Source: Mycobacterium sp. ITM-2016-00318
GTDB lineage: Bacteria > Actinomycetota > Actinomycetes > Mycobacteriales > Mycobacteriaceae
DNA length: 64,000 nucleotides
NCBI RefSeq assembly: GCF_002968285.2
Contig: NZ_CP134400.1
Coordinates: forward strand, 4,402,001 to 4,466,000
Direction of reading: 5' to 3'
Positions 4,418 through 63,155 of the stretch are shown here, piece after piece (the first letter of the stretch is position 1; each line of letters opens with the position of its first letter). Made by a program: the position numbers and the translations under genes. The notes below the pieces were generated by a model that ran no database searches, was not told the DNA's origin, and saw nothing but the letters and a program-made list of their open reading frames with translations.

Positions 4418-4977
4418 GACCCTTCGTGACCGGCGTCGACCGCCTCGGCACCCTTGTACTGGGTCTTCTTTTGCTCGCGATCGGCGTCGGTTTCCTCGCG
4501 TGGGCCGTTGTCGACGTCGACAATGCCACCGTGTTGACCGCTCCGGGTCTGGCAACCGCAGCCGGGTCGGCCTGGTGGCCATGGGCCACGGGCGCCGCCG
4601 GCGTGGTGTTGGTGCCGTTGGGGATGCGCTGGCTGCTTAGCCGGGGACCCGCCGAACGCCCTAGGCCGCTGACGCTGCCCGGAAGCGACCAGACGGGAAG
4701 GCTGACCGCCGACCTCAAGTCGCTGGCGAGCGCCGCCGCCGACCAGCTGAGCAGTCATCCGGCGGTACGCTCGGCGAAAGGTTCGGCGATCGTCGACCGC
4801 GGCGCGCCGAGTATTCAGCTGAAAGCAACCGCGTCTTCCGCCGAGACACTGGCAGAGGCGGTTCGCGCCGCCGATGACATCGCGACGACTGCGACCGGCA
4901 TGCTCGGCGACGCCATAGTCGTTCGCACTCGACTGCACGTCGACACCAAACGCCGCGCCGAGCGACGCCTCGCCTGA
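4414..4977 (+). CDS. AmaP-like membrane anchor of the Asp23 operon
   Basis: 187 residues, ATG overlapping the previous stop (ATGA). The N-terminal half holds two membrane helices (LGTLVLGLLLLAIGVGFLAW and WPWATGAAGVVLVPLGMRWLL). The C-terminal half is soluble (DLKSLASAAADQLSSHPAVR ... SIQLKATASSAETLAEAVRA). This layout matches AmaP, which anchors Asp23 to the membrane in Firmicutes, although sequence similarity is only general. It is the last gene of the operon; 323 bp without a gene follow. Confidence 0.65.
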   Translation: MRPFVTGVDRLGTLVLGLLLLAIGVGFLAWAVVDVDNATVLTAPGLATAAGSAWWPWATGAAGVVLVPLGMRWLLSRGPAERPRPLTLPGSDQTGRLTADLKSLASAAADQLSSHPAVRSAKGSAIVDRGAPSIQLKATASSAETLAEAVRAADDIATTATGMLGDAIVVRTRLHVDTKRRAERRLA

Positions 4978-52944: not shown

Positions 52945-53532
52945 GTGAGTGACGCGGACCTTCCCGACAAGTCCGTCGAGAAGTCGTCTCCGTCATCTGA
53001 TGGGCTCGCCGCGCCCAAAACGGGCATCATCCGGCGTACGCCAACGGGATCGTTGCCGACGCTCGACGAGCCGCAGACCACTCACATCGGGACCCACACC
53101 CATCCGGAATCGCAGACCACCTATATTCCGCAGGCCAAGCCGGTTTCGATCCGGGGCCGCAACGCAATGCGGCCGAAGATGGCCGCCACGACAGCGGTCT
53201 CTGCGATCCTCAGCGGATGGGCGACCGCCGTCATCGCCACCGACCTCATCACCGGCTGGTGGGCGTCTGACCGGCTGTTCTGCGTCGCGGTCGGCTTCCT
53301 GACGCTGGTGTCGGCGGGCGCGCTCATCGGCGGGGTGATCGCGCTGCTGCTTCGTCGGCGGATGGCCAGGGTTCTCGTCGTCGTCGGTTCGGTGATCGGG
53401 CTGTTGATCTTCGCGAGCCTGTTCGTGGCGGGCGCCAAGCTGGCGCCGGTGGTCTATGCGATCCCCGCGCTGCCGGTGATCACGATCGTGCTGGCGCTGC
53501 TTCCGGCCACCGCCCGGTGGGCCCGGTCCTAG
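52945..53532 (+). CDS. Membrane protein of unknown function downstream of the M23 peptidase
   Basis: 195 residues from GTG 52945, directly behind the peptidase stop. A disordered N-terminus with repeated Thr/His/Pro (EPQTTHIGTHTHPESQTTYI) precedes four hydrophobic segments: AVSAILSGWATAVIATDLI, VAVGFLTLVSAGALIGGVIA, VLVVVGSVIGLLIFASLFVA and VVYAIPALPVITIVLALLPA. No family recognised. Close coupling suggests it works with the peptidase. Its stop shares CTAG with the convergent uvrD1 stop. Confidence 0.75.
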   Translation: MSDADLPDKSVEKSSPSSDGLAAPKTGIIRRTPTGSLPTLDEPQTTHIGTHTHPESQTTYIPQAKPVSIRGRNAMRPKMAATTAVSAILSGWATAVIATDLITGWWASDRLFCVAVGFLTLVSAGALIGGVIALLLRRRMARVLVVVGSVIGLLIFASLFVAGAKLAPVVYAIPALPVITIVLALLPATARWARS

Positions 53533-55835
53533 AGCTTGCTGATCGGCGCGTGGTTGTGCATCAGCTTGACGCGGCCTGCGCTGCCGAAGTCGATCAGCGA
53601 CATCGCCGATTCGCCCATGCCGGACACCTCCTCGACGCGGCCGAGGCCGTACTTGTCGTGGGTGACGCGGTCGCCGGCCTCCAGCACGATCAACGGGCGC
53701 TTACCCGCCGACGAACGCGCCGGCGACGGCCGGGGCGTGCCGAAGCGGCCCGCACCGCTGAGCGGTGCCGACAAGGACGGCGCCGGGTCGGTGCGACGCC
53801 AGTTGATGAGCTCCTGCGGAATCTCGCGGAGGAACCGCGACTCGGGATTGAGCATCGGCTGACCCCACGACGACCGGACCTTCGCCCGGCTCACGTAAAG
53901 GCGTTGCCGCGCACGGGTTATACCGACGTAGGCCAGCCGCCGCTCCTCGGACAACTCGGCGGGATCGCCGAGCGCCCGCATGTGCGGAAACATGCCGTCC
54001 TCCCAGCCCGTCACGAACACGACGGGGAACTCCAGGCCCTTGGCGGTGTGCAACGTCATCATCGTCACCACGCCCGCACCGTGCTCGGGTAGTTCGTCGG
54101 CGTCGGCCACCAGCGATACCCGCTCGAGGAACTTCGCCAGCACGCCCGTGTCGGGGATGTCCTCATCGTCGAGGTCGGTGCCCAGCGCCTCGGCGTTGGC
54201 CAGGTCGGTGCTGAACTCGTGTGCGACGCTGACCAATTCGTTCAGGTTGTCCAGCCGTGCGAGATCCTGCGGATCGCTGGACGCCTCCAGCTCCGCGCGG
54301 TAGCCGGTGCGGTCCAGCACCGCCTCGACCAGTTCCCCCAGCTCGCCGTCGAGACGGCCCCGCAGATCGTCGAGCAGTTCGACGAAGCCAGCGATGCACT
54401 TCTCGGCGCGGGTGTTCAGCATCGGCACCCTGCCCTCGGCGGCCGCCTGCAGCGCATCGTTGAAGCTGCCGCCGGTGTTCTCGGCATAGACCGCGACGCA
54501 CGCCTCTGCGCGGTCGCCGATGCCGCGTCGCGGGGTGTTCAGGATGCGTCGCATGCTCACCGAATCGCCCGGATTGTCGAGCACCCTCAGATAGGCGACG
54601 ATGTCGCGGATCTCCCTACGCTCGTAAAAGCGAACGCCGCCAACAACTTTGTAGGGGATGCCGGCGCGGATGAACACCTCTTCCAGCGCACGCGACGAGT
54701 TGTTGGTGCGGTAGAACACCGCGACGTCGTTGTACGTGATCTCCTTGCGGTCGGCCAGCGCGTCGATCTCCTCGGCGACGAACCGCGCCTCGTCGTGCTC
54801 GTTGTCGGCGACATAGCCGACGATCAGCTCACCCTCGCCCGCGTCGGTCCACAACCGCTTCTCGCGGCGCCCCGCGTTGCGGGAGATGACGGAGTTGGCC
54901 GCCGACAGGATGTTCTGCGTCGAGCGGTAATTCTGTTCGAGCAGAATCGTTCTGGCATCGGGGAAGTCGCGCTCGAAGTCCTCGATGTTGCGGATGGTGG
55001 CGCCGCGGAACGCGTAGATCGACTGGTCGGCGTCGCCCACCACGCAGAGTTCGGCGGGCGTGATGCCGTCGATGGTGGTCTCTGTGCCGACGAGCTCGCG
55101 CACCAGCACGTACTGCGCATGGTTGGTGTCCTGGTACTCGTCGACGAGGATGTGCCGGAAGCGGCGCCGGTAGTACTGGGCGATCTGCGGAAAGGCTTGC
55201 AGCACAGCGACTGTCTCGCCGATGAGGTCGTCGAAGTCGAGCGCGTTGGCCGACCGCAGCCTGCGCTGGTACTCCCCGTACACCTCGGCGATGATGCGGG
55301 CCAGGTCGTCCTCGGCCTCTGATGCCTCCGCGGCGGCCTGCTCGGGCCCGATCAGCTCGTTCTTCAGGTTGGAGATCCCGTTGGCCAGCAACCGCGGGGA
55401 GTGCCGCTTGGTGTCCAGGCCCATGTCCTTGCCGATCATCAGCAGCAGCCGCCGCGAGTCGTCGGCGTCATAGATCGAGAAGTTGGAGTTCAGCCCCGGC
55501 AGCAGCGAGGCCTGGTTGCGCAGGATCCGCACGCAGGTCGAGTGGAACGTCGACACCCACATCGCGCGGGCCCGCGGACCGATCAGCCCCACCACCCGCT
55601 CGCGCATCTCGGCGGCGGCCTTGTTGGTGAACGTGATGGCCAGCACCTGGCCGACGCCGACGTCGCGGGCGGCCAGCAGGTAGGCGATCCGGCGGGTGAG
55701 CACGGCCGTCTTACCCGAGCCCGCCCCGGCGACGATGAGCAGCGGCGAGCCTTCATGCAGCACCGCCTGGCGCTGCTGGGGGTTGAGCCCGTCAAGAAGC
55801 TCGTCGGCCTGCGAATCGGTCACGTGCACACTCAT
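53529..55835 (-). CDS. uvrD1: ATP-dependent DNA helicase UvrD1 (PcrA/UvrD family)
   Basis: 768 residues. Superfamily 1A motifs: Q-motif LNPQQRQAVLHEG, Walker A LLIVAGAGSGKTAVLTRRIA, motif II HILVDEYQDTNHAQY, motif III VVGDADQSIYAFRGA, motif V TLHTAKGLEFPVVF and motif VI RLAYVGITRARQRLY. A C-terminal Tudor-like domain (ALRVTHDKYGLGRVEE-type, DFGSAGRVKLMHNHAP) matches the region that binds Ku or RNA polymerase in mycobacteria. Works in nucleotide-excision repair and replication-fork restart. Rv0949 orthologue. Confidence 0.96.
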   Translation of the reverse strand: MSVHVTDSQADELLDGLNPQQRQAVLHEGSPLLIVAGAGSGKTAVLTRRIAYLLAARDVGVGQVLAITFTNKAAAEMRERVVGLIGPRARAMWVSTFHSTCVRILRNQASLLPGLNSNFSIYDADDSRRLLLMIGKDMGLDTKRHSPRLLANGISNLKNELIGPEQAAAEASEAEDDLARIIAEVYGEYQRRLRSANALDFDDLIGETVAVLQAFPQIAQYYRRRFRHILVDEYQDTNHAQYVLVRELVGTETTIDGITPAELCVVGDADQSIYAFRGATIRNIEDFERDFPDARTILLEQNYRSTQNILSAANSVISRNAGRREKRLWTDAGEGELIVGYVADNEHDEARFVAEEIDALADRKEITYNDVAVFYRTNNSSRALEEVFIRAGIPYKVVGGVRFYERREIRDIVAYLRVLDNPGDSVSMRRILNTPRRGIGDRAEACVAVYAENTGGSFNDALQAAAEGRVPMLNTRAEKCIAGFVELLDDLRGRLDGELGELVEAVLDRTGYRAELEASSDPQDLARLDNLNELVSVAHEFSTDLANAEALGTDLDDEDIPDTGVLAKFLERVSLVADADELPEHGAGVVTMMTLHTAKGLEFPVVFVTGWEDGMFPHMRALGDPAELSEERRLAYVGITRARQRLYVSRAKVRSSWGQPMLNPESRFLREIPQELINWRRTDPAPSLSAPLSGAGRFGTPRPSPARSSAGKRPLIVLEAGDRVTHDKYGLGRVEEVSGMGESAMSLIDFGSAGRVKLMHNHAPISKL

Positions 55836-55870
55836 GTCTGCCCCAACTTACCGCTGCGATGGGACATTCT

Positions 55871-55900
55871 TTGCGCTGGCGGCGGGCCGGATGGCACACT
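55871..55900 (+). promoter_or_regulatory. Possible promoter of the chorismate mutase leader transcript
   Basis: TTGCGC at 55871–55876 and CACACT at 55895–55900 are 18 bp apart. This places transcription start at about 55907, the G of the leader GTG codon, so the leader peptide would be leaderless. Confidence 0.4.
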
Positions 55901-55906
55901 TATTTC

Positions 55907-55966
55907 GTGCTCATCACGCAGCGTCGATTTTTCTACGGGTACCGGCCAGCGGTGCCCGTGGTCTAG
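55907..55966 (+). CDS. Leader peptide rich in Phe and Tyr (attenuator of the chorismate mutase gene)
   Basis: A 19-codon ORF, GTG to TAG, encoding a peptide whose middle reads RRFFYGYR, that is four aromatic residues in five positions. A GC-rich hairpin begins 12 bp after its stop and the chorismate mutase start is about 105 bp downstream. This is the classical layout of ribosome-mediated attenuation: stalling at Phe/Tyr codons would prevent terminator formation. An attenuator at the chorismate mutase gene of Corynebacterium glutamicum has been reported, which supports the reading. Too short to be a functional protein. Confidence 0.65.
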   Translation: MLITQRRFFYGYRPAVPVV

Positions 55967-55977
55967 CTGCTTCGTCA

Positions 55978-56010
55978 GAGCCCCGCGGTCCGCTTCCGGA
56001 TCCGGGGCTC
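55978..56010 (+). terminator. Attenuator terminator hairpin before the chorismate mutase gene
   Basis: GAGCCCCG (55978–55985) pairs exactly with CGGGGCTC (56003–56010), followed by GTCTCTTGTG. It sits between the aromatic leader ORF and the chorismate mutase gene. The T-content after the stem is modest. Confidence 0.6.
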
Positions 56011-56072
56011 GTCTCTTGTGTGAGGCCCGAAACCGGATGGATCGCAGCCCACACAATGAGGAGTCCAACAAT

Positions 56073-56336
56073 ATGTCTATCGAAACGGAACCCGTGGCCG
56101 ACATCGACGATCTTCGCCAGGAGATCGACCGACTCGACGCCGAGATCCTTGCCGCAGTGAAGCGTCGCACCGAGGTGTCGAAGCTCATCGGCAAAGCCCG
56201 GATGGCCTCCGGCGGCACCAGGCTGGTGCACAGCCGCGAGATGAAGGTGATCGAGCGCTTCAGCGAGCTCGGCCCCGAGGGCAAGGACCTGGCGCTGCTG
56301 CTGCTCCGCCTGGGCCGCGGCCGCCTCGGCCACTGA
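56073..56336 (+). CDS. Intracellular chorismate mutase (AroQ-delta)
   Basis: 87 residues from ATG 56073, preferred because GAGGAG precedes it at 10 bp; an in-frame ATG at 56037 would add 12 residues. The AroQ helix pattern DDLRQEIDRLDAEILAAVKR RTEVSKLIGKAR is split by conserved Arg and Lys residues, and the C-terminus LLLRLGRGRLGH is typical of the mycobacterial enzyme that is boosted by DAHP synthase. It converts chorismate to prephenate for Phe and Tyr. Rv0948c orthologue. Control by the aromatic leader fits the pathway. Confidence 0.93.
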   Translation: MSIETEPVADIDDLRQEIDRLDAEILAAVKRRTEVSKLIGKARMASGGTRLVHSREMKVIERFSELGPEGKDLALLLLRLGRGRLGH

Positions 56337-61809: not shown

Positions 61810-62559
61810 CTAAGCGAAAGGCTTCGTGAGCCGGGGCGGCAGCACCTTCATCAGCTGCACCAACGGCGCCCACGGCCAGAAGGGCACAGCGGCGCGGCCG
61901 CTCTCCTTCTCGATCGCATTCACCATCGCCTTCGTGCCGGATTCGTTGTCGACCATCAACATCGTCGACGCCGACTTCGCCGTCATCTCCGACTCGATGT
62001 ATCCCGGCTCGAGCACCGTGATCTTGACGGGGCCACTCGGGTACTCGGCGCGCAGCGATTCGCCGAGCGACGACACACCCGCCTTGCTGGCGGCGTAGGC
62101 GGCCTTGACGCCCGGCACCCCTTTGTTGCCCAGCACCGACGAAATCAGCACCAGATGTCCACCACCGGAGTTCTTGAACATCTCGATGGCGGTTTCGATC
62201 TGCACAAGCGCCGCCACCAGGTTCGTCTCGATCGTCTGCTTGTTCGCCCACAACTTGCCCGACCCCAGCGGCGCACCCTTACCGATGCCCGCGTTGACGA
62301 TCACGCGGTCGATGCCGCCCAGCTGGTCCTCCAGCTCGGCGAAGACCTTGGGCACCTGGTCATGGTCGTTGACGTCCAGTGCCGCGACGGCCACGGTGAT
62401 GCCCTGGTGTCGCGCGGTCAGCTCGGCCTTCAGTTCGTCGAGGCGGTCGACGCGCCGGGCGCACAGCGCGAGGTCGCGCCCCTTGGCGGCGAACGCCCTT
62501 GCCATGCCCGCACCAAGGCCCGAACTGGCGCCCGTGATCAAGATTTTCTGCCGTGTCAC
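61810..62559 (-). CDS. Short-chain dehydrogenase/reductase (Rv0945-like)
   Basis: 249 residues. Classical SDR signatures: cofactor loop KILITGASSGLGAGMARAFA, NAG motif VIVNAGIGKGAPLG, catalytic Ser in LVLISSVLGNKGVPGVKA and the YxxxK pair in YAASKAGVSSLGESLRAEYP. Substrate unknown. It converges on pgi, and its start lies 26 bp from the divergent secreted chorismate mutase gene. Confidence 0.92.
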   Translation of the reverse strand: MTRQKILITGASSGLGAGMARAFAAKGRDLALCARRVDRLDELKAELTARHQGITVAVAALDVNDHDQVPKVFAELEDQLGGIDRVIVNAGIGKGAPLGSGKLWANKQTIETNLVAALVQIETAIEMFKNSGGGHLVLISSVLGNKGVPGVKAAYAASKAGVSSLGESLRAEYPSGPVKITVLEPGYIESEMTAKSASTMLMVDNESGTKAMVNAIEKESGRAAVPFWPWAPLVQLMKVLPPRLTKPFA

Positions 62560-62585
62560 CCGGACAGCCTAAGCATGATGGACGA

Positions 62586-63155
62586 ATGAGCCGTAATCGA
62601 AGTGCTGCCGTGCTGGTAACCGGGTCGCTGCTGGTGGGCGCGCTGCCCGTGGCCGCAAGCGCCGAGCCCGCCAGCCCGCTGTACCTGCTGGTGGACACCG
62701 CCGCCCAGCGGCTGGCGACCGCGGACCCTGTCGCGGCCACGAAGTGGATCAACCACGGGCCGCCGATCGACGATCCGCCGCGAGCCGCCGCCGTGCTGGA
62801 CAGCGTCGGCGCCGACGCCACCGCCCACGAGATCGACGCCGGCTACGTGCGGAGGATCTTCACCGACCAGATAGACGCGACCGAAGGCGTCGAGTACACG
62901 CGATTCGCGCAGTGGAAGTTCGACCCCTCAACCGCCCCGACGACCGCGCCCGACCTGTCCGAATCGCGAAGAGCCATCGACGGGTTCAACAAGACCATGG
63001 TTAACGAGATTGCGCTGCACTGGAATTCGCTGCGCGGGCCGTCCTGTCAGGCTGAGATTCAGGAGGCGACGGACGCCGTCGCCTCTGCCCGTGCCCTCGA
63101 CCCGCTGTACCGGCAGGCGCTGTCATCGGCGACACGGTCTTACTGCCTCACGTGA
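62586..63155 (+). CDS. Secreted chorismate mutase (AroQ-gamma, Rv1885c-like)
   Basis: 189 residues from ATG 62586. A signal peptide (SAAVLVTGSLLVGALPVAAS) ends at ASA before EPASPLYLLVDTAA. The mature part matches the *MtCM family: TAAQRLATADPVAATKWINH, GYVRRIFTDQIDATEGVEYT and FNKTMVNEIALHWNSL. Two cysteines (GPSCQAEI, SYCLT) are placed as the disulfide of Rv1885c. It makes prephenate outside the cytoplasm, with unclear purpose. Its end overlaps the convergent GMC gene by 8 bp. Confidence 0.92.
   Translation: MSRNRSAAVLVTGSLLVGALPVAASAEPASPLYLLVDTAAQRLATADPVAATKWINHGPPIDDPPRAAAVLDSVGADATAHEIDAGYVRRIFTDQIDATEGVEYTRFAQWKFDPSTAPTTAPDLSESRRAIDGFNKTMVNEIALHWNSLRGPSCQAEIQEATDAVASARALDPLYRQALSSATRSYCLT

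Follow-up and report, generated by a model that had tools for sequence, protein, structure and literature searches.

We report here a probable ribosome-mediated leader-peptide attenuator of the intracellular chorismate mutase (CM) gene in Mycobacterium sp. ITM-2016-00318, which would sense charged tRNA-Phe and perhaps tRNA-Tyr. The most likely sensed amino acid is Phe. The element lies in a stretch of 64,000 nucleotides that was analysed as a whole and is referred to here as the window. Its parts are the following (window positions).

53529-55835, - strand: divergent neighbour, a PcrA-type helicase gene
55871-55876, + strand: -35-like TTGCGC, 18 nt 5' of the -10-like box (prediction only)
55895-55900, + strand: -10-like box CACACT, inside GGCACACT (55893-55900)
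55907-55966, + strand: leader ORF VLITQRRFFYGYRPAVPVV, GTG start, TAG stop, 19 sense codons, probably translated leaderless
55925-55942, + strand: putative sensor codons CGA-TTT-TTC-TAC-GGG-TAC (Arg-Phe-Phe-Tyr-Gly-Tyr)
55933-55961, + strand: P1 (1:2) hairpin inside the leader ORF, arms 55933-55944 and 55950-55961, 12 pairs
55949-55993, + strand: candidate antiterminator (2:3), 55949-55952 with 55990-55993 and 55956-55961 with 55983-55988
55978-56010, + strand: P3 (3:4) terminator-like hairpin, 14 pairs, one bulge at 55986
56011-56022, + strand: tail 3' of P3, GTCTCTTGTGTG, with 5 T in the 10 nt after CGGGGC and no canonical U-tract
56013-56060, + strand: hairpin P4, formed by 56013-56025 and 56048-56060; its 3' end abuts the Shine-Dalgarno sequence GAGGAG
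56073-56336, + strand: CM gene, 87 aa, the presumed regulated gene (NCBIfam NF005894, 2.7e-40; TIGR01808, 1.9e-36)

The ORF reading and the NF005894 and TIGR01808 matches confirm a preliminary description of a 19-codon GTG-to-TAG leader containing Phe-Phe-Tyr-Gly-Tyr (codons 8-12, 55928-55942) before the CM gene. At least four F, Y or W within five codons were found in 2 of the 839 short ORFs of the window, the leader and ORF 4454-4537, compared to 0.1 +/- 0.3 in 20 Markov-1 simulations. The same description had singled out an 8-bp GC stem following the leader. This stem is exact (GAGCCCCG, 55978-55985, with CGGGGCTC, 56003-56010) and begins after an 11-nt spacer from the leader stop, but it is just the outer part of P3, extending inward to the 14-pair stem with one bulged base, and P1, which overlaps the Tyr-Gly-Tyr codons, had gone unnoticed. 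By itself, the 8-bp stem is no better than chance, with 54 perfect 8-bp stems (loops of 3-20 nt) in the window versus 36, 58 and 47 in three simulations; conservation carries the case. The RNA from 55890 to 56080 folds at -88.9 kcal/mol (z = -5.7 versus 200 shuffles), and the window energies are -22.9 kcal/mol for P1, -19.3 for arm 2 with arm 3, -27.2 from the end of the ORF to the terminator and -21.1 for the P4 region. At the leader site, Rfam gave nothing above gathering score, the best weak match being RF00627 with 20.4 bits versus a gathering score of 70. A second CM-like ORF (62553-63155, + strand, 200 aa; CM_2 match at 62688-62894, 35.7 bits) carries an apparent signal peptide and perhaps encodes a secreted-type chorismate mutase; it lies some 6 kb away from the intracellular CM gene.

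The leader, its reading frame, the spacing between box and start, and the hairpins P1, P3 and P4 are conserved. CM is present in 145 of 148 genomes of the genus. Our genus-level set consisted of 221 loci (194 distinct): 141 loci from the genus and 80 named contigs, which were the best matches by CM similarity, picked by similarity and not by genus, with mostly mycobacterial titles. Two records titled Bifidobacterium breve MAG (L015, L052), with CM 80-82% identical to that of the window, look mislabelled or mixed. The leader motif, defined as at least 7 of the 13 residues of RFFYGYRPAVPVV, was found upstream of CM in 173 of the 194 distinct loci and was absent from 21. Among the 173 loci, Arg is kept in 170, the first Phe in 170, the second Phe in 146, the first Tyr in 152, Gly in 169 and the second Tyr in 164. 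The comparison of relatives proposed in the preliminary description thus comes out in its favour: in the genus-level set, both the hairpins and the aromatic codons are conserved, whereas the number of codons between the start and the motif Arg ranges from 4 to 21.

An in-frame start without intervening stop lies 6-8 nt 3' of a box of the form [TC]A[CG]A[CA]T in 171 of the 173 loci, the exceptions being L074, where a stop replaces the Arg, and L202. This start is GTG in 163 loci and ATG in 8, at a distance of 6 nt from the box in 129, 7 nt in 41 and 8 nt in 1; the box reads CACACT in 149, CAGACT in 17, TACACT in 3, and TAGACT and TACAAT in 1 each. A -35-like pentamer is located 16-20 nt 5' of the box in 160 of the 170 loci with enough upstream sequence, at a spacing of 18 in 150. 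An earlier, cruder count (167 loci of motif score at least 8, without L090, L092, L032, L094 and L097) had placed the box in 161, with five apparent out-of-frame starts, all of them GTGTG or ATGTG overlaps. In the window, the leader frame is also open upstream to an ATG at 55859 (35 codons), so that the window alone does not fix the GTG start; conservation does. Because an open, in-frame GTG or ATG follows the conserved -10-like box at 6-8 nt in 171 of 173 loci, leaderless initiation at the leader GTG is likely. A promoter starting transcription on this GTG was proposed in the preliminary description; the sigma-70 consensus scan finds no promoter at 55800-56100, where the terminator scan also returned nothing.

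Of the 173 loci, 166 use TTT as the first Phe codon and 167 use CGA for the motif Arg. Both codons are rare in three genes of the window, with 5 TTT among 48 Phe codons and 3 CGA among 144 Arg codons. Retention of rare codons at the putative sensor may fit a need for sensitivity; a base-level reason is possible, too. It strikes us as highly improbable that the element is instead a 5' structure of constitutive effect, or a premature terminator, that senses no amino acid and has its aromatic codons as a by-product of P1. In keeping with this alternative, the Tyr codons do lie inside arm 1 of P1, and in loci of the RFPYGY type (L046 and L050, for example) P1 and P3 persist although the second Phe codon is gone. 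However, the first Phe codon, which is outside P1, encodes Phe in 170 of 173 loci, the reading frame and start position are kept, and the gene served was CM in all 44 strong matches to our covariance model (described below) that were checked. Leaders in genus g10 (L165, L167, L331, L332) read RFPSGY, RFPSGH or RFLSGY; these loci have kept P1 and a P3-like stem without the second Phe codon or the first Tyr codon. No such leader was found upstream of the second CM copies in g10 (L195, L196).

Pairing was scored on an alignment (A1) of 102 of 111 sequences, omitting L089, L096, L294 and the outgroups L174, L185, L186, L140, L165 and L167; a second alignment (A2) comprised 34 of 36 chosen sequences, with L089 and L096 omitted. 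On A1, 11 of the 12 pairs of P1 are formed in 97.1% of alignment cells and the outermost in 96.1%; the corresponding values are 95.7% for 13 pairs of P3 and 82.4% for its innermost pair, and 80.9% for 10 pairs and 88.7% for 2 pairs of P4. The structure as a whole is paired in 91.6% of cells versus 38.5-50.3% when slid, with a covariation score of 0.107 versus 0.025-0.062. Double changes affect 12 pairs and 29 cells, compared to 9-13 pairs and 16-50 cells in slid controls, and two further double-change counts gave 4 and 6 versus 1-5 and 2-7, and 4 and 6 versus 2-8 and 2-10 when slid. The 29 cells changed on both sides on A1 compare with 11.8 +/- 3.2 in shuffles. Since double changes are not above the slid controls and kinship can also produce an excess over shuffles, structural support comes mainly from conserved pairing and individual cases. 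A naive covariation ranking (APC-corrected G statistic on 137 of 164 aligned sequences with motif score at least 9, without L032, L094 and L097) was dominated by kinship and was discarded as proof.

P1 provides several of the individual cases. Both-side changes occur in three of its pairs. At 55939/55955, GC has become AU in 4 of the 102 sequences; with this change, L056, L066 and L108 keep Gly (GGG to GGA) and have Ser in place of Pro. In the sister genus g24, L327 (RFFVRHRLPVLDN) and L328 (RFFSQAPEAGA) have lost Tyr-Gly-Tyr and keep Phe-Phe, and P1 forms with 14 and 12 pairs at -23.9 and -23.4 kcal/mol, respectively. These cases bear on the idea that the leader product itself is functional, as a small protein or an arrest peptide, with incidental hairpins. 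Such a protein would suit the conservation of the peptide RFFYGYRxxVPV, both across the genus-level set and in several loci of sister genera, and the presence of RFFYGYRPPV in one genome of another family. We nevertheless give this idea very little credence: the N-terminal part varies in length, as noted above, the P1 pair is kept at the expense of the peptide in the three loci with Ser for Pro, P1 is conserved in L327 and L328 although Tyr-Gly-Tyr has been replaced there, and the leader is missing where CM itself starts at the promoter-proximal GTG.

P4 is not among the 14 pairs, parts of P1 and P3, that are all RNAalifold predicts on A1; the case for P4 rests on pairing counts and arm swaps. 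In the swap test, which covered 100 of 105 sequences, 74 of the 100 had a more stable P4 with their own arms than with swapped ones (mean -15.8 versus -14.2 kcal/mol; Wilcoxon 2e-8, kinship included), and a control piece showed no effect, with own arms better in 38 of 93. A different hairpin (GGATCG..CGATCC) seems to replace the P4 of the window 3' of P3 in L185 and L186.

The candidate antiterminator 2:3 would compete with P1 and P3. Its helices are paired in 91.2-100% of cells of the alignment, and together with a 4:5 alternative (56003-56010 with 56022-56029, paired in 93.2% of cells) in 95.2% versus 29-53% when slid. The base at 55986 is bulged in P3 and paired in 2:3; at least 95 of 101 sequences carry a pyrimidine there, as 2:3 requires. 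In simulated folds with a ribosome on arm 1 and arm 4 unmade, arm 2 pairs with arm 3 in 150 of 151 sequences. The energy of the stalled RNA has a mean z of -0.7 versus base shuffles, and the duplex of arms 2 and 3 has a mean z of -1.0 versus dinucleotide shuffles of arm 2, with a median fraction as stable of 0.18. These tests covered 151 of 170 and 96 of 111 sequences, respectively, because arm 3 was located by a text pattern. L185 and L262 favour another 2:3 register (CGUG with CACG). As pairing is near-universal yet energies are just modestly better than those of shuffles, we regard 2:3 as plausible, but not proven.

From this arrangement we infer the start site, leader translation, termination, the antiterminator and the signal, as follows. 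Transcription would start on the leader GTG, and the leader would be translated leaderless. With ample charged tRNA-Phe, and perhaps tRNA-Tyr, the ribosome would reach the stop codon and cover arm 2, P3 would form, and transcription would end before CM. When charged tRNA is scarce, the ribosome would stall at CGA-UUU-UUC-UAC and cover arm 1, which would free arm 2 to pair with arm 3, so that P3 does not form and CM is transcribed. When no ribosome is present, P1 would form and thus P3 would be allowed. A ribosome covers about 15 nt ahead of its P site. With this footprint, the stall at Phe is predicted to cover arm 1, and a ribosome at the stop codon would cover arm 2, but not P3. P4, located beside the Shine-Dalgarno sequence, may add a translational layer.

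P3 is called a terminator mainly because T-runs follow it in some sister-genus loci. In the window, there is no canonical U-tract 3' of the stem (GTCTCTTGTGTG), and the consensus scan reports no terminator there. A T-run is found 3' of P3 in the sister-genus loci L185, L186, L321, L323-L328, L330 and L333, namely CTTTTTTCG in L324 and L325, CTTTTTCG in L321, L323 and L327, CTCTTTTCG in L326 and L330, CCTTTTCG in L328, CATTTTTCG in L333 and CTCATTTTTC in L186. It is absent after P3 in L174, L322, L140, L165, L167, L331 and L332, and in L314 from another family. The T count in the 10 nt after P3 differs little, with 5 in the window versus 5-7 in the T-run loci listed. Attenuation by leader translation, as put forward in the preliminary description, is supported by the conserved leader, frame and hairpins, and the putative termination step at the P3 of the window leans on relatives.

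Alternatively, control could be translational, with a Phe or Tyr stall rearranging the hairpins so that P4, adjoining or overlapping the Shine-Dalgarno sequence, would open and CM would be translated, with little or no termination. The missing U-tract in the window, the arm-swap result for P4 and the high pairing of 4:5 would all agree with this. Three observations make it unlikely in our view. A single double change in one pair leaves 4:5 nearly unprobed by covariation; when the tail is folded, an average of 48% of the Shine-Dalgarno zone stays unpaired, so that its sequestration is partial; and T-runs do follow P3 in some sister-genus loci. We favour transcriptional attenuation at P3.

Relatives without the attenuator bear on the start codon. 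In 11 of the 21 motif-less loci, as read from the sequence, CM itself starts at a promoter-proximal GTG, and two groups can be delimited by sequence likeness. In L059, L069 and L203 (and in L210, not a distinct row), the box is followed after 6 nt by a GTG that is the CM start. CM of L069 and L203 still opens with GTG CTN, like the leader, and for this reason a deletion appears to have joined the leader start to CM in this group. In L119, L245, L246, L269, L272, L273, L287 and L288, the GTG of CM is positioned 6 nt after GACTAT, GACGAT, GACCAT or GAGCAT. In both groups, CM thus seems to have turned directly leaderless, reusing the leader start codon in the first. Such attenuator-less relatives are natural controls, and their sequences support the leader GTG as a real start. 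Elsewhere, the hairpins are lost in L015, L022 and L277, and P3 is wholly or mostly missing in L032, L096 and L097, as well as in L089, where this was judged by length.

The spread of the element was followed with a covariance model (R1) built on 34 sequences from the genus-level set and genera g10, g12, g18 and g24; its E-values are rough. At E 0.001, R1 matched 71 of 201 family genomes, many of them weakly. There were 45 strong matches (E <= 2.5e-8), in 6 of the 31 sampled genera of the family (g1, g10, g12, g18, g22 and g24), and no strong match in the other 25; g22 matched strongly though not part of R1. CM lies directly 3' of 44 of the 45, and its place is not listed for the 45th (G327). 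In 148 class genomes, G414 of family f36 gave the sole strong match outside the family (6.0e-10). Its leader contains RFFYGYRPPVAVAAV, starts with a GTG 7 nt 3' of TATGCT and precedes a CM gene, with 50% identity across residues 15-86. When RFFYGYR was searched as a strict nucleotide pattern, 21 of 394 class genomes matched, namely 20 of the genus and G414; single pattern matches alone are weak because the reversed pattern matched 4 of 394. Genome G115 (locus L261) keeps the attenuator element, and an FFYGY leader was not found upstream of CM in five g3 genomes (CM 56-65% identical). Weak R1 matches elsewhere were treated as chance, for example G262 with 31.1 bits on a different contig from its CM, and L334 without CM. 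In the genome of Mycobacterium sp. ITM-2016-00318 itself, with starts taken from the longest ORF, no comparable aromatic leader was present at the DAHP synthase or prephenate dehydratase genes; a weak F..F.W candidate leader of 33 codons precedes the DAHP synthase gene. The longest ORF of its prephenate dehydratase (L301, C1:5210595-5211158, - strand) starts with GTG, and it is a guess that this gene is leaderless, too.

Taken further, the data would accommodate an ancient actinobacterial Phe attenuator that is older than the family and reads charged tRNA-Phe through the conserved rare codon pair CGA-UUU on a leaderless transcript. It would act at two levels, termination at P3 and P4 near the Shine-Dalgarno sequence, and would have been lost at least twice, CM taking over the promoter-proximal GTG as a leaderless gene and, in one case, fusing the first codons of the leader to the enzyme. 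We offer this wider scenario tentatively, as one that may well prove wrong.

In Escherichia coli, translation of the pheL leader starts at a Shine-Dalgarno sequence and its terminator carries a U-tract, in both respects unlike the reading given here for the leader in the window. The two are alike in that a Phe leader stands before a gene of the Phe branch, pheA encoding CM-prephenate dehydratase (PMC11802643). The preliminary description had cited attenuation at the CM gene of Corynebacterium as a precedent. We set this aside, since in the accessible parts of PMC4046766, PMC3890552 and PMC11802643 the leader-peptide attenuators of C. glutamicum are listed at trpE, leuA, ilvB and aroF (with a Phe-Tyr-Phe leader), and not at csm. 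The aroR-aroF attenuator, which responds to Phe limitation, not Tyr (Neshat et al. 2014, as described in PMC11802643 and PMC4046766), is, by description, likewise an actinobacterial aromatic leader peptide with ribosome-mediated attenuation of an aromatic pathway gene, but serves the DAHP synthase gene aroF instead of chorismate mutase. Attenuation of ilvB1 in M. tuberculosis is backed by experiments, according to PMC13236596. As described there and in PMC11857589, M. tuberculosis ilvB1 and C. glutamicum ilvBNC share with the window a leader ORF with regulatory codons and competing antiterminator and terminator hairpins, and the ilvBNC leader is leaderless, too, with a third hairpin preceding the antiterminator. 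They differ in responding to branched-chain amino acids and in having been examined by experiment. The window element most likely shares its type with the classical leader-peptide attenuators, here before a mycobacterial CM gene.

Canestrari et al. (2020) is said to be a reference on Cys-rich leaderless uORFs of mycobacteria. These uORFs, described in PMC4633059, resemble the window in placing a leaderless short ORF rich in an amino acid upstream of genes for that amino acid. They differ in concerning cysteine and, as far as the accessible text of a 2005 comparative survey of Actinobacteria goes, in having no conserved terminator hairpins (PMC1262725); the same text reports that conserved RNA structures were not found in front of phenylalanine or tyrosine operons. 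At the level of titles and the openings of abstracts, no paper on mycobacterial chorismate mutase or Rv0948c was found to describe this attenuator, although a mention in a table is possible, and the portions of PMC10937400, PMC11133741 and PMC6437058 that were examined contain no description of a CM attenuator.

As summarized in PMC4281200, chorismate mutase of M. tuberculosis is weak alone, is activated by DAHP synthase and is inhibited via the complex by Tyr and Phe. The attenuator comes with natural controls, namely relatives that lost the element and in which CM is apparently directly leaderless. A conserved expression switch on chorismate mutase would add a second layer of control beside that at the protein level.
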